A stretch of DNA of 64,000 nucleotides from Desulfovibrio aminophilus DSM 12254 (lineage in GTDB: Bacteria > Desulfobacterota > Desulfovibrionia > Desulfovibrionales > Desulfovibrionaceae): positions 186,001 through 250,000 of the forward strand of contig NZ_AUMA01000009.1 in NCBI RefSeq assembly GCF_000422565.1, read 5' to 3'. Below, piece after piece: positions 41,931-45,936 of this stretch. Position 1 is the first letter of the stretch. Every line of letters begins with the position of its first letter. The notes beneath the pieces are model-generated. The model searched no databases and had not been told where the DNA came from. It worked only from the letters and a program-made list of their open reading frames with translations. Made by a program: the position numbers and the translations under genes.

Positions 41931-43013
41931 GTGAAGAACTCACTGGCCACGAGATGGGGCATCATCGGCGTGGGATTGGCCATCGGCGTACTGGCGCCTC
42001 TGCTCCAGTTCTGGGGCAATCCGGGCAACATGGGCGTGTGCGTGGCCTGCTTCGAGCGGGACATCGCCGGGGCCGTGGGACTGCACCGGGCCGACGTGGT
42101 CCAGTACATGCGGCCGGAGATCATCGGCTTCGTCCTGGGATCGCTGCTGGCCGCGCTGGCGGCCAAGGACTTCCGGCCCCGCGCCGGGTCCGCGCCCATT
42201 GTGCGCTTCCTTCTGGGCGCCTTCGCCATGATCGGCGCGCTCATCTTCCTGGGCTGCCCCTGGCGCGCCCTGCTCCGCCTGGCCGGCGGCGACCTGAACG
42301 CCGTGCTCGGCCTGGCCGGGCTCATCGGCGGCATCTGGATCGGCACCCTCTTCCTGCGCGGCGGCTTCACCCTGGGACGCAGCCAGCAGGCCCCGGCCGC
42401 CGTGGGGCTGGTCCTGCCCCTGGTCATGGTCTTTTTCCTGGCGCTCCTGTTCATATTCCCGGCCCAGGAGGGCCAGCCGGTGAGCGGCGTGCTCTTCTAC
42501 AGCCTCAAGGGCCCCGGCGCGCAGCACGCGCCCCTGGTCCTGGCGCTGGGCGCCGGTCTGATCATCGGCGGTCTGGCCCAGCGCAGCCGCTTCTGCACCA
42601 TGGGCGCGTTCCGCGACCTGCTCCTGTTCCGCCAGACCCACCTGCTCGGCGGCGTGCTGGCCCTGCTGGTCGCGGCCCTGGTGGTCAACCTGGCCCTGGG
42701 GCAGTTCCGTCTGGGCTTCGAGGGACAGCCCGTGGCCCACGCCCTGCACTTCTGGAACTTCGCGGGCATGGTCCTGGCCGGTCTGGCCTTCGCCCTGGCC
42801 GGAGGCTGCCCCGGACGCCAGTTGTTCATGGCCGGCGAGGGCGACGGCGACGCGGCCGTGTTCGTCCTGGGCATGATCGTGGGCGCGGCCTTCGCGCATA
42901 ACTTCGGGCTGGCCAGCTCGCCCAAGGGCCTCGGCCCCCACGGCCTGGAGGCCTGGCTTCTGGGCATGGCCTTCTGCCTGTTCATCGGCTTGGCCATGCG
43001 GAAAAAGGCGTAA
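41931..43013 (+). CDS. yedE: YedE-family putative selenium transporter (YeeE/YedE membrane protein)
   Basis: The protein has 360 residues and ten or so membrane helices. It belongs to the YeeE/YedE family, which moves reduced sulfur or selenium compounds. The family cysteines are visible in GCPWRALLRLAGGDLNAV near 105, in CTMGAFRDL near 223 and in GGCPGRQL near 297. The selenium-linked branch has the first of these motifs in this form and is paired with TusA-like and DUF3343 proteins, as here. GTG at 41931 follows a GGGGAGGGG run. First gene of a five-gene operon; GC-rich hairpin CGGCCG/CGGCCG lies upstream at 41882-41899. Confidence 0.88.
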   Translation: MKNSLATRWGIIGVGLAIGVLAPLLQFWGNPGNMGVCVACFERDIAGAVGLHRADVVQYMRPEIIGFVLGSLLAALAAKDFRPRAGSAPIVRFLLGAFAMIGALIFLGCPWRALLRLAGGDLNAVLGLAGLIGGIWIGTLFLRGGFTLGRSQQAPAAVGLVLPLVMVFFLALLFIFPAQEGQPVSGVLFYSLKGPGAQHAPLVLALGAGLIIGGLAQRSRFCTMGAFRDLLLFRQTHLLGGVLALLVAALVVNLALGQFRLGFEGQPVAHALHFWNFAGMVLAGLAFALAGGCPGRQLFMAGEGDGDAAVFVLGMIVGAAFAHNFGLASSPKGLGPHGLEAWLLGMAFCLFIGLAMRKKA

Positions 43014-43024
43014 GGAGCGAAACA

Positions 43025-43243
43025 ATGGCTGAAACAGTCGACGCGCGCGGGCTCTCCTGCCCCCAGCCGGTGCTGGACGCCCTGGCCGCCATGAAACGGC
43101 TCGGCTCCGGGACCATTGAAGTCCTGGTGGACACCGAAGCCTCCAAGGAAAACGTATCCCGGGCGGCCGCCGGCTCGGGCTGGCGGGTGGAGAACGTGGC
43201 TGAAAACTCAGGCGAATACCGGCTGACCATCAGCAAGTCATGA
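43025..43243 (+). CDS. TusA-like (SirA/YedF-type) sulfur/selenium carrier protein
   Basis: TusA-like proteins carry a persulfide, or by inference perselenide, on a conserved cysteine. The 72-residue protein has the signature ARGLSCPQPVLDALAAM near 8-24, with the C-P-x-P active Cys at 13. Next to yedE it corresponds to the N-terminal TusA part of YedF, a protein linked to selenium metabolism by gene context. AAGGAG lies 6 bases upstream of the ATG. The stop overlaps the next gene by 4 bases. Confidence 0.92.
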   Translation: MAETVDARGLSCPQPVLDALAAMKRLGSGTIEVLVDTEASKENVSRAAAGSGWRVENVAENSGEYRLTISKS

Positions 43244-43788
43244 GCCTTCTGGACCTGCTCCGGCCCAAGGGCCGGAGGAAACAGGCCCCGTCCACGGACC
43301 GGGGCATCCTGGTCTTCGCCAACACGAGCGAGGTCATCCGCGCCGAAACCGTGCTCAAGGCCGGGGGCTGGCCCGTGACCGTCATGGGTCCGCCCCCGGA
43401 ACTCCAGCGCGGCTGCGACCTGGTGGTGGTCTATCCGCTCATAGAGACGGCCCGCATCCTGAGCGTCCTGGAGGAGGCGGGCAACCCGCCCCTGGAGGCC
43501 GCGCCCCTGTCCGGTCCGCTGCTCAAGCCCGTGGATCTCTACCAGACCAAGGACTTCGGGCGGCACCTCATGGTCCGGGCCGCGAACATGAAGATCACCG
43601 TGGACAAGAAAACCCGGGTCATCGTCAACGTCTCGGGCGGCGGCTGCCCGGACGTGCCCTGGCTGGCCCGCGAGCTGACCGGCAGGCCCCTGGACGAGGC
43701 GGCCAGTCCGCGCGACCAGGGCCACACCCTCTGCGCCTACGCCCTGGACCTGGCCCTGAAGGAGATGCGTCGCCTGTGCTCGCGGTGA
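43240..43788 (+). CDS. DUF3343 protein (putative Se/S carrier-like)
   Basis: The protein has 182 residues. The DUF3343-like part (about 20-90) has GILVFANTSEVIRAETVLKAG near 22-42 and a conserved VMGPPPELQRGCDL segment with a single Cys. A further C-terminal region of about 80 residues is less usual and holds CPDVPWLARELTG near 140 and a late Cys. DUF3343 co-occurs with selenium-trait genes and resembles the C-terminal half of some YedF proteins. ATG overlaps the TusA stop (ATGA). Confidence 0.85.
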   Translation: MSLLDLLRPKGRRKQAPSTDRGILVFANTSEVIRAETVLKAGGWPVTVMGPPPELQRGCDLVVVYPLIETARILSVLEEAGNPPLEAAPLSGPLLKPVDLYQTKDFGRHLMVRAANMKITVDKKTRVIVNVSGGGCPDVPWLARELTGRPLDEAASPRDQGHTLCAYALDLALKEMRRLCSR

Positions 43789-44642
43789 TCGGCACCCTGC
43801 CCGAGCCTGGCGCGCCCCTGCTCACCGGCCCGGCGGCCTGGGACGGCGGCCCTCTTTCCGTGGCCGGGACGGCCGTGGACGTGGCCCGAGGCACCCCAGC
43901 CCTGCTGGCCGCGGCCTCGGCGACCGCTCTGGCGTTGGGCCGATCGGCCCCGCACGCCGTGCTGGCCGGGGACATCGGCCGGGGCGACGGCAGCCGCGCG
44001 GTCTACGCCCATCTCGTGGAAACGCTGCCCGCGAGCCCCTTCTCCGTCCTGGCCTTCCACTACCTCCAGCCGGACGTGGACTGGCACAACAAGGTGCTCT
44101 TCACGGTGCAGGCCATGCGGCCCAAGCCCCTGCTCCTGGCCGACGCGGGCTTCATGTACGCGGCCAAGATGAGCGGCCAGGCCCCGGAGTACGACCTGTT
44201 CACCCCGGACGCCGGGGAGCTGGCCTTTCTGGCCGACGAAACCGCGCCGCATCCGTTCTACGCCCGGGGCTTCCTGCTCAGCCAGGAAAACCGCGTGCCG
44301 GAGCTGATCCGGCGGGCCCACGTTCACGACAACGCGGCCCGCCACCTGCTGGTCAAGGGCGTCACGGATCACGTGGCGCGGGGCGGCGAGATCCTGGGCA
44401 GCGTGGACGCGCCTTCCGAATCGGCCCTGGAGGCCATGGGCGGCACGGGCGACACGCTGACCGGCGTCACGGCGGCGCTCATCGAGGCGGGCTGGGACAT
44501 CCCCCGGGCCTGTCTGGCCGGGGCGCGGGTCAACCGCGTGGCCGGGGCCCTGTTGCGGCCCACTCCCGCCAGCCAGGTGCGGGAACTGATCGCACACATC
44601 CCGGAGGCCCTGGAAACCGTGCTGCGCGAGGAAGGCCTGTGA
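43776..44642 (+). CDS. CARKD-like (NAD(P)HX dehydratase/ribokinase-fold) protein in the selenium operon
   Basis: The 288-residue protein has the ribokinase-like fold of ADP-dependent NAD(P)H-hydrate dehydratases. Motifs are EYDLFTPDAGELAFL near 144, HLLVKGVTDHVARGGEIL near 188 and the catalytic-type glycine loop AMGGTGDTLTGVTAALIEAG near 221. The NnrE epimerase domain of the usual fused repair enzyme is absent. Its place between DUF3343 and DUF1858 genes suggests a selenium- or sulfur-related job rather than NAD(P)HX repair. GTG at 43776 overlaps the DUF3343 stop by 13 bases. Confidence 0.75.
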   Translation: MLAVIGTLPEPGAPLLTGPAAWDGGPLSVAGTAVDVARGTPALLAAASATALALGRSAPHAVLAGDIGRGDGSRAVYAHLVETLPASPFSVLAFHYLQPDVDWHNKVLFTVQAMRPKPLLLADAGFMYAAKMSGQAPEYDLFTPDAGELAFLADETAPHPFYARGFLLSQENRVPELIRRAHVHDNAARHLLVKGVTDHVARGGEILGSVDAPSESALEAMGGTGDTLTGVTAALIEAGWDIPRACLAGARVNRVAGALLRPTPASQVRELIAHIPEALETVLREEGL

Positions 44643-44860
44643 TCTCGCCCCAGGACACCATCCTGGACACCGTGTACCGTCACCGGGCCACGGAAGCCGT
44701 GTTCCGGGCCCACGGCGATCGCGCCGGGGCCTGCATCCTCTGCGAGGCCCTGTTCGAGCGCATCGAGGATGCGGCCACGCGCTACGGCATCGACCTCGCC
44801 GCCCTGCTGAAGGATTTGGAGGCGGCGGCCGCGGGAGATTCCCTTACGAAAGGGGCCTGA
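44639..44860 (+). CDS. DUF1858-domain small protein
   Basis: The 73-residue protein has a DUF1858-like domain: ISPQDTILDTVYRHRATEAVF near the start and GACILCEALFERIEDAATRYGID near 30-52, with a C-x2-C pair (Cys 32 and 35). It ends in LLKDLEAA. DUF1858 proteins are small redox-disulfide proteins of unknown role. GTG overlaps the previous stop (GTGA). The last 17 bases overlap the convergent selenoprotein gene. Confidence 0.85.
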   Translation: MISPQDTILDTVYRHRATEAVFRAHGDRAGACILCEALFERIEDAATRYGIDLAALLKDLEAAAAGDSLTKGA

Positions 44861-45473
44861 AGCCCTTCCCCCGGTCCGCCAACCCGCGCAACGCATTCCT
44901 GAAGGTCTCGATCGGCTGCGCGCCCCGGATGGAACCGAATCCCTCCAGGAAGAAGGTCGGCGCGGCCCGGACGCCGAGATCCTTGCCGCGCGCGGTGCTC
45001 TCGATCACCGTCCGCGTGTAGGTCTTGTCCGCCAGAACCCGCCGCGCGGCCTCGCGGGACAGCCCCGCCTCGCCCGCCGCCGTCAGCAGCACGTCGATAT
45101 TCCCGATGTCCCCGCATTCCGTGAAGCAGGCGCGGAACACGGCCGCGTGATATTCATGGTGCAGGCCCTCGGCCCTGGCCAGCTCGCCGAGCTCCAGCGC
45201 CGCCCGTGAATTGCACAGCAGGGTCTGCGTTCCGAAACGGACGCCCAGGGCCTTGCCCCTGGCGTCCAGACCGGCGAAGAACTCCCGGGGGTCCAGGTCC
45301 GGAAAATGGTCCGTGAGCGGGACGCTCTTCAGGGGCGCGTCCGGATGCACCTCATAGGGTCGCCAGTCGTCCTCGATGGGAAACTCGTTCCGCAATGTGT
45401 CGACAATACCTTTGCCGATGTAGCAGAACGGTCAGGTGTAGTCGGAATAGATCGTGATCTTCACGGGAGCCAC
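44844..45473 (-). CDS. selenocysteine-containing DsbA/FrnE-family oxidoreductase (TGA = Sec)
   Basis: The 209-residue protein has a thioredoxin fold with a DsbA-like insertion, as in FrnE/2-hydroxychromene isomerase relatives. It starts at GTG 45473 (GAGGAGG 5 bases upstream), or less likely at GTG 45464. It reads M-A-P-V-K-I-T-I-Y-S-D-Y-T, then TGA (45434-45432), then P-F-C-Y-I-G-K-G. The family has C-P-F-C or C-P-W-C here, so the TGA replaces the first active-site cysteine. The frame then stays open to TAA at 44844-44846. Later motifs are GVRFGTQTLLCNSRAALELGEL, HEYHAAVFRACF and a C-terminal V-R-A-A-P-T-F-F-L cis-proline loop. No signal peptide, so cytoplasmic. Alternative: a nonsense mutation, which the SECIS-like hairpin argues against. 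Confidence 0.85.
45386..45434 (-). promoter_or_regulatory. bacterial SECIS-like element just after the Sec codon
   Basis: On the minus strand, after UGA (45434-45432), CGUUCUGC (45430-45423) pairs with GCGGAACG (45393-45386), 8 pairs. Inside this, UCGGCAA (45418-45412) pairs with UUGUCGA (45406-45400), 7 pairs, leaving the apical loop AGGUA. The GG of the loop lies 22-23 bases after UGA, within the spacing known for bacterial SECIS elements, whose apical loops carry a guanine followed by U. Codons inside the hairpin (AAA, GGT, ATT, ACA, TTG) are rare in this GC-rich genome, as expected if RNA structure constrains them. Confidence 0.75.
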
Positions 45474-45936
45474 GGAAACCTCCTCGTCGTCGGCTCAAAC
45501 GGTACTTGAAACCACGGACTGAAAAATCAGCCGAAGTCCGCGCATCCAGCCCGCCGGGCCGCCGACGGCGCGGCAGGGTCGCGGACGCGGCACTCTCATA
45601 CGCCGCAGCGCGACGAAACGACATCATATTGAAATAATGTATTTATATTCAGGCAGACAATGGACGCCGCCGCACGACGCGGCGGGCTGGATTGGGAAAT
45701 GCGGCGGAGAAGCGTGAGGATGAAGCCGGTGACGCAGGGAGACGATGATGCTTTGCGGCTTGCCTGGATTCATTGGTGGAAAGGCTGTCGCTGGCTGATG
45801 CCGGGTGCCGAAGAGGCGAAACGATGGGGCTCACCACAACATTTGAGCGGTGATTGCTCCGAGGATGAAGGTTCCGTCACACAGGCCCCCGCCGCATCAG
45901 CGCCGCGTCCGCTACCCGGCGGACGTCGCCAAGGCA
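45474..45936. other. intergenic stretch with an AT-rich island
   Basis: No gene is recognised in these 463 bases. An AT-rich island lies at 45620-45655. On the minus strand it offers a -10-like TATGAT (45628-45623) about 150 bases upstream of the selenoprotein gene, with a weak -35. The other side (45660-45900) has longer open frames that resemble nothing I know. Confidence 0.3.

Follow-up and report, generated by a model that had tools for sequence, protein, structure and literature searches.

The frame question at this locus is whether a TGA triplet at the position of an active-site cysteine ends a gene or is read as selenocysteine (Sec), and which type of enzyme would be formed in the latter case. 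The gene in question is located on the minus strand (44844..45473) of a 64,000-nucleotide stretch of the Desulfovibrio aminophilus DSM 12254 genome (hereafter the window) and displays homology to the Pfam family DSBA. Judging from sequence comparison and predicted structure, Sec is very probably inserted at codon 14, yielding a thioredoxin-fold oxidoreductase of the FrnE/DsbA type.

Reading frame and start codon

The frame extends from a GTG start at 45473 to a TAA stop at 44844 (209 residues). Re-reading it bore out the original prediction of a single in-frame TGA (codon 14; 45432..45434, minus strand), the frame being open over its remaining length. The TGA, read as Sec, provides the first residue of a U-P-F-C motif (local context SDYTUPFCYIGKG), while TGC codon 17 (45423..45425, minus strand) encodes the second active-site cysteine. 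A Shine-Dalgarno-like AGGAGG (45479..45484, minus strand; read by eye) is found 5 nt ahead of the GTG. Under the standard code, the mechanically derived ORF comprises only TTG 45395-44844 (183 amino acids) and is devoid of the active site, just as had been anticipated for standard gene calling; the locus thus represents a clean case of a standard-code reading dropping the active site of an enzyme.

Given the base composition of the window, a run of 209 codons would contain no more than one stop by chance with P ~0.05, so that in this GC-rich DNA openness of the frame alone is weak evidence. The frame is convincing because of homology along its entire length, the placement of the TGA, and its recurrence in 26 further class genomes as well as in 2 of 23 loci from outside the class search.

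Relatives and the Sec/Cys column

Relatives, defined as matches at E<=1e-15, were found in 40 of 348 genomes of the class (own genome included), with no match at this threshold in two other listed genomes of the same genus. Codon 14 is TGA in 27 of these 40 genes and TGC or TGT in the remaining 13, whereas codon 17 specifies Cys in all 40; several of the TGA-bearing relatives stem from single-contig assemblies. A pattern search of named genomes retrieved 23 additional loci, two of them with TGA (L023, Smithella sp. MAG; L024, deltaproteobacterial MAG) and 21 with Cys, a ratio biased towards Cys, as the motif in its Cys form was among the patterns searched for. The column therefore contains Cys or TGA and nothing else, which agrees with the claims that the TGA occupies the column of the first active-site Cys and that the second one, three residues on, is kept.

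In the protein alignment (A3; 33 rows, i.e., 31 of the 40 class genes plus L023 and L024), S10, D11, residue 14, P15 and C17 are invariant, and DSBA was matched at E<=0.001 in all 33 rows scanned. The window protein also possesses an extra C-x3-C pair (C116 and C120; 45114-45128, minus strand), both cysteines of which recur in just a single further row of this alignment (L081); no Cys is located beyond residue 120. A second DSBA match in the own genome (L002) is without stops.

Codon 14 was read as Cys in every TGA row of the phylogenetic tree (61 rows; L029 and L032 omitted) and hence cannot drive its topology. At least 7 changes between Sec and Cys are required on this tree, strongly supported branches forcing 7, with the count not separating gains from losses and some deep joins being unsafe (long branches). 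One enzyme occurring in Sec and Cys forms among related genomes offers material for testing the benefit of selenium to disulfide oxidoreductases.

SECIS-like hairpin downstream of the TGA

A bacterial SECIS stem-loop is predicted just past the TGA (45386..45430, minus strand), comprising a lower stem of 8 bp, an upper stem of 7 bp and the loop AGGUA (-18.9 kcal/mol); in TGA relatives, its apical hairpin (45400..45418, minus strand) exhibits compensatory changes. Starting at the TGA, a stretch of 50 nt folds at this energy with a z of -3.76 (1 of 200 shuffles as low). The window stretch in the class-wide folding run yielded z -3.53 and a 66-nt stretch around the 50-nt fold -3.11, while z was 0.32 and -0.10 in two of the four stretches folded, both of which stop short of the lower stem's 3' arm. 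The geometry (upper stem of 7 bp, 5 nt loop with G as its second base, 20 nt between UGA and loop) agrees with the bacterial SECIS model in the available text of PMC13188914. The bare apical hairpin attains only about -6 kcal/mol; the -7.5 kcal/mol limit given in the same text is reached only with the lower stem counted, and on that count the stem-loop fits the published model. Rfam at gathering thresholds produced no match in the window, which counts neither way on a SECIS element.

Across the class, the 27 TGA genes had a mean folding z of -1.40, the 13 Cys genes one of 0.01 (Mann-Whitney P 2.5e-6); other stretches of those TGA genes averaged -0.10. Many individual TGA genes have a weak z, and mean raw energies are close (-13.9 for TGA genes versus -12.9 for Cys genes). 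Hairpins were then scored by a simple rule (>=4 uninterrupted bp, loop 3-9, G within the first two loop positions, spacing 16-37, energy <= -4 kcal/mol, the energy limit being our own choice) and were found in 27 of 29 TGA genes versus 6 of 34 Cys genes (Fisher P 8e-10). In the two TGA genes without such a hairpin (L108, L110), the stem matches except for an internal T-T mismatch. Hairpins according to the rule are also present in two Cys forms that are close kin of TGA forms (L079:7659-7708, minus strand; L100:6291-6340, plus strand), which suggests recent replacement of Sec by Cys.

Base pairing of the apical stem was compared among 27 distinct TGA rows, in which 92.6% of the cells pair versus at most 53% when the pairing is slid. 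Both sides have changed at 4 of 7 pairs, a count reached by 1 of 500 shuffles, and in 11 cells, a count reached by none of the 500; one slid version shows such changes at 3 pairs and in 4 cells. The innermost position is unpaired in twelve rows, and further pair types are not above shuffles (480 of 500 as high). When three divergent rows with a different stem (L108-L110), included in this count, are excluded as in the first count (24 distinct rows), every cell pairs, 5 of the 6 pairs are constant, and the remaining pair has a double change, in 2 rows. These three rows form a divergent TGA clade (own order; L108:7520-7569, minus strand; L109:7523-7572, minus strand; L110:5264-5313, plus strand), where hairpin position and a CGGG loop are kept and the stem letters differ. 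Among Cys rows, 74% of the cells pair, as counted in 9 of the 13 class Cys genes (L111-L114 omitted).

Codon usage within the stem provides a further indication: codon 23 is ATT in 20, ATC in 2 and not Ile in 5 of the 27 class TGA genes, as compared to 63 ATT versus 123 ATC downstream in the same genes (Fisher P 2e-7); as the rows are related, this and all other P values for hairpins and codons overstate significance.

Selenocysteine machinery

A search for the genes of Sec synthesis and insertion, proposed as a check by the original prediction, was positive in the own genome (3.4 Mb, 25 contigs, 99.98% complete): selA (603 bits) and selB (344 bits; 366 together with a neighbour in frame) are located on contig C1, selD (317 bits) on contig C23, and one tRNA-Sec scores over the Rfam cut-off (contig C1, 79.5 bits) and is also called by ARAGORN (anticodon tca). 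The selD gene (L020, G000:C23:149247-150164) itself contains an in-frame TGA in SVRAAG-U-AAK; at the G-U-A-A-K site, SelD proteins usually carry Sec or Cys, and the SelD protein of this genome is probably a selenoprotein as well. At E<=1e-50, 36 of the 39 other class genomes with a relative gave a selA match; those without a match at this threshold are G132 and G169 (both with Cys forms) and G056 (TGA form; 94% complete), the genus mate of which (G058) has selA.

Two findings had been named beforehand as refuting a Sec-dependent oxidoreductase, i.e., a genome without Sec machinery, and homologs with neither Cys nor TGA at the column. Neither occurred, and this reading is supported.

Two explanations dispense with Sec. 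The TGA could reflect faulty sequencing or a newly arisen nonsense mutation in a dsbA/frnE gene of the Cys type, which would then be a pseudogene; the existence of Cys versions in 13 of 40 genomes, with TGC and TGT being one base from TGA, would be compatible with this. However, an error or recent mutation is at odds with the hairpin and its compensatory changes, with the full Sec machinery in the genome, and above all with recurrence of the TGA at one column in 27 of 40 class genomes, several of them single contigs, on which ground it was rejected as extremely improbable. Alternatively, translation may begin at TTG 45395, the start of the ORF listed in frame under the standard code, and the true product would then be shorter and lack the active site. 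However, this start corresponds to residue 27 and would leave the structural model without strand 4-10 and with hardly any of helix 15-27; S10, D11, residue 14, P15 and C17, all invariant in the 33-row alignment, lie upstream of it, and the AGGAGG precedes GTG 45473, which leaves initiation at the TTG equally hard to credit.

Enzyme family, predicted structure and mechanism

The Pfam model DSBA (PF01323) matches residues 6-195 with 88.6 bits (cut-off 25.6; E 6e-25), and FrnE of Deinococcus radiodurans is the closest solved protein by sequence (E 5e-18). An AlphaFold2 model was computed with Cys replacing Sec (mean pLDDT 95.8, pTM 0.90). Among solved folds, it is best matched by the FrnE entries of D. 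radiodurans (E 5e-15; TM 0.87, relative to the query) and by a Streptomyces DsbA (3gl5); matches to kappa class GST (E about 1e-9) and to HCCA isomerase (E about 2e-8) are weaker. Sequence and fold thus both back the earlier assignment to the FrnE/DsbA family. In the model, residue 14 directly precedes helix 15-27 and Pro172 (codon 44958..44960, minus strand; invariant in the 33-row alignment) directly precedes strand 173-176, which we take to be the usual arrangement of thioredoxins; Pro172 may represent the cis-Pro of the thioredoxin fold.

With respect to the mechanism, SelB and tRNA-Sec would decode UGA codon 14 as Sec, directed by the predicted hairpin just past the UGA. The selenolate of Sec14 may then attack a substrate disulfide to form a mixed selenosulfide, resolution of which by Cys17 would generate a Sec14-Cys17 selenosulfide, and a cellular thiol or thioredoxin may recharge the enzyme. 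As the window protein is without a CXXXXC pair, recharging would come from elsewhere. The partners and substrates proposed here are putative, and the short N-terminus indicates that the protein is probably located in the cytoplasm.

Reduction appears to be the somewhat favoured direction of the reaction. The main competing view accepts insertion of Sec and assumes the enzyme to function mainly as oxidase or isomerase, or to depend on glutathione in the manner of kappa class GST and HCCA isomerase, to the folds of which the model is also matched. FrnE (E 5e-15), however, is a far better match than these folds, [U/C]-P-x-C is present in all 40 class genes, as would be expected of a disulfide oxidoreductase, and a disulfide reductase role has been proposed for D. 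radiodurans FrnE (available text of PMC8945050). A function other than disulfide reduction is therefore considered rather unlikely.

Neighbouring operon, probably selenium-related

A likely selenium-related operon (41931-44860, plus strand) is oriented convergently to the selenoprotein gene. Its genes, all on the plus strand, are yedE (41931-43013; TIGR04112, 476.5 bits) and a yedF-like gene (43025-43243, bounds by eye; 53.7 bits where the cut-off is 110), followed by genes for proteins with a Se/S carrier domain (PF11823; 43240-43788) and a Carb_kinase domain (PF01256; ending at 44642). The last ORF (44639-44860; read by eye) comprises 73 residues with a C-x2-C motif and shares 17 bases with the end of the selenoprotein gene. 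YedE, YedF and DUF3343 proteins are given as predicted selenium genes in the available part of PMC9312934.

Linkage was assessed by tblastn of the window neighbours against 39 class regions (<=~7 kb per side, a few <1 kb on one side) and 23 outside loci (<=3 kb), with YedE, the Se/S carrier, the Carb_kinase-domain protein and the small ORF as informative queries, while absence of YedF or DsrK proves nothing. Within these fetched regions, the operon was found beside the gene in only 1 of 62 loci (1 of 39 class relatives, 0 of 23 outside). The relative concerned (L105 in G305) is a Cys form with the operon upstream of the gene and yedE nearest to it, an arrangement unlike that of the window. One may speculate that the Sec-containing FrnE acts together with the yedE-yedF-Se/S-carrier operon in selenium handling, e.g., by reducing intracellular selenium-sulfur adducts; this role is regarded as improbable, and if true the selenoprotein would feed its own supply line.

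Within the largest genus group (g37), 20 of 25 loci have one and the same gene directly downstream. It is presumably an L-asparaginase, based on a motif read by eye, and was not found beside the window gene in the comparison of neighbour ORFs, the picking of which was crude (in several loci an antisense frame was chosen over the gene itself).

Comparison with known DsbA-like selenoproteins and FrnE

The expectation that DsbA-like U-x-x-C selenoproteins had already been reported in delta-proteobacteria proved right according to the available parts of PMC1794560 and PMC1914089. In the former, a table contains the row 'DsbA-like' with the number 4, and a DsbA-like selenoprotein is assigned to Desulfovibrio desulfuricans, Anaeromyxobacter dehalogenans and Desulfotomaculum reducens. 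The latter presents the TGA cluster 'DsbA-like, 2, Dde_1263 + upstream', i.e., the gene call Dde_1263 of D. desulfuricans needed upstream extension. A table of PMC5029168 gives 41 and 45 for DsbA-like protein, here taken as organisms and genes. UxxC DsbA families are placed under pfam01323 in the accessible portion of PMC2398784, and a UxxC 'DsbA-like protein form 1' under PF01323 in that of PMC13188914. As far as described in these excerpts, the published DsbA-like selenoproteins share the Pfam family (PF01323) and the UxxC placement with the window protein, Dde_1263 and NIP15863.1 being likened to it by description and not by sequence alignment. The DsbG-like selenoproteins (NF041057) resemble the window protein in UxxC and in their thioredoxin-like nature; a weak match to residues 125-195 (31.4 bits versus a cut-off of 190), however, shows that it is not a member. 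In the literature retrieved for selenoprotein and FrnE, no title or opening of an abstract pointed to a protein of this kind, and in the available text of PMC13188914, PMC1794560, PMC9312934 and PMC2398784 the name FrnE was not found beside DsbA.

FrnE of D. radiodurans (DR_0659; PDB 5cnw, 5co3) has, like the window protein, an active site of the C-P-[W/F]-C type, in which Sec replaces the first Cys in the window protein. According to the available text of PMC8945050, the D. radiodurans protein has been proposed to reduce disulfides in the cytoplasm, with its C-terminal CXXXXC (residues 239-244) helping to regenerate the active site. Such a pair is absent from the 209-residue window protein; since it is found in many FrnE members but not all (same source), the protein is named FrnE-type and nothing more is claimed. 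DsbA-like UxxC selenoproteins are a known kind, listed since 2006, to which the window gene adds a new member.
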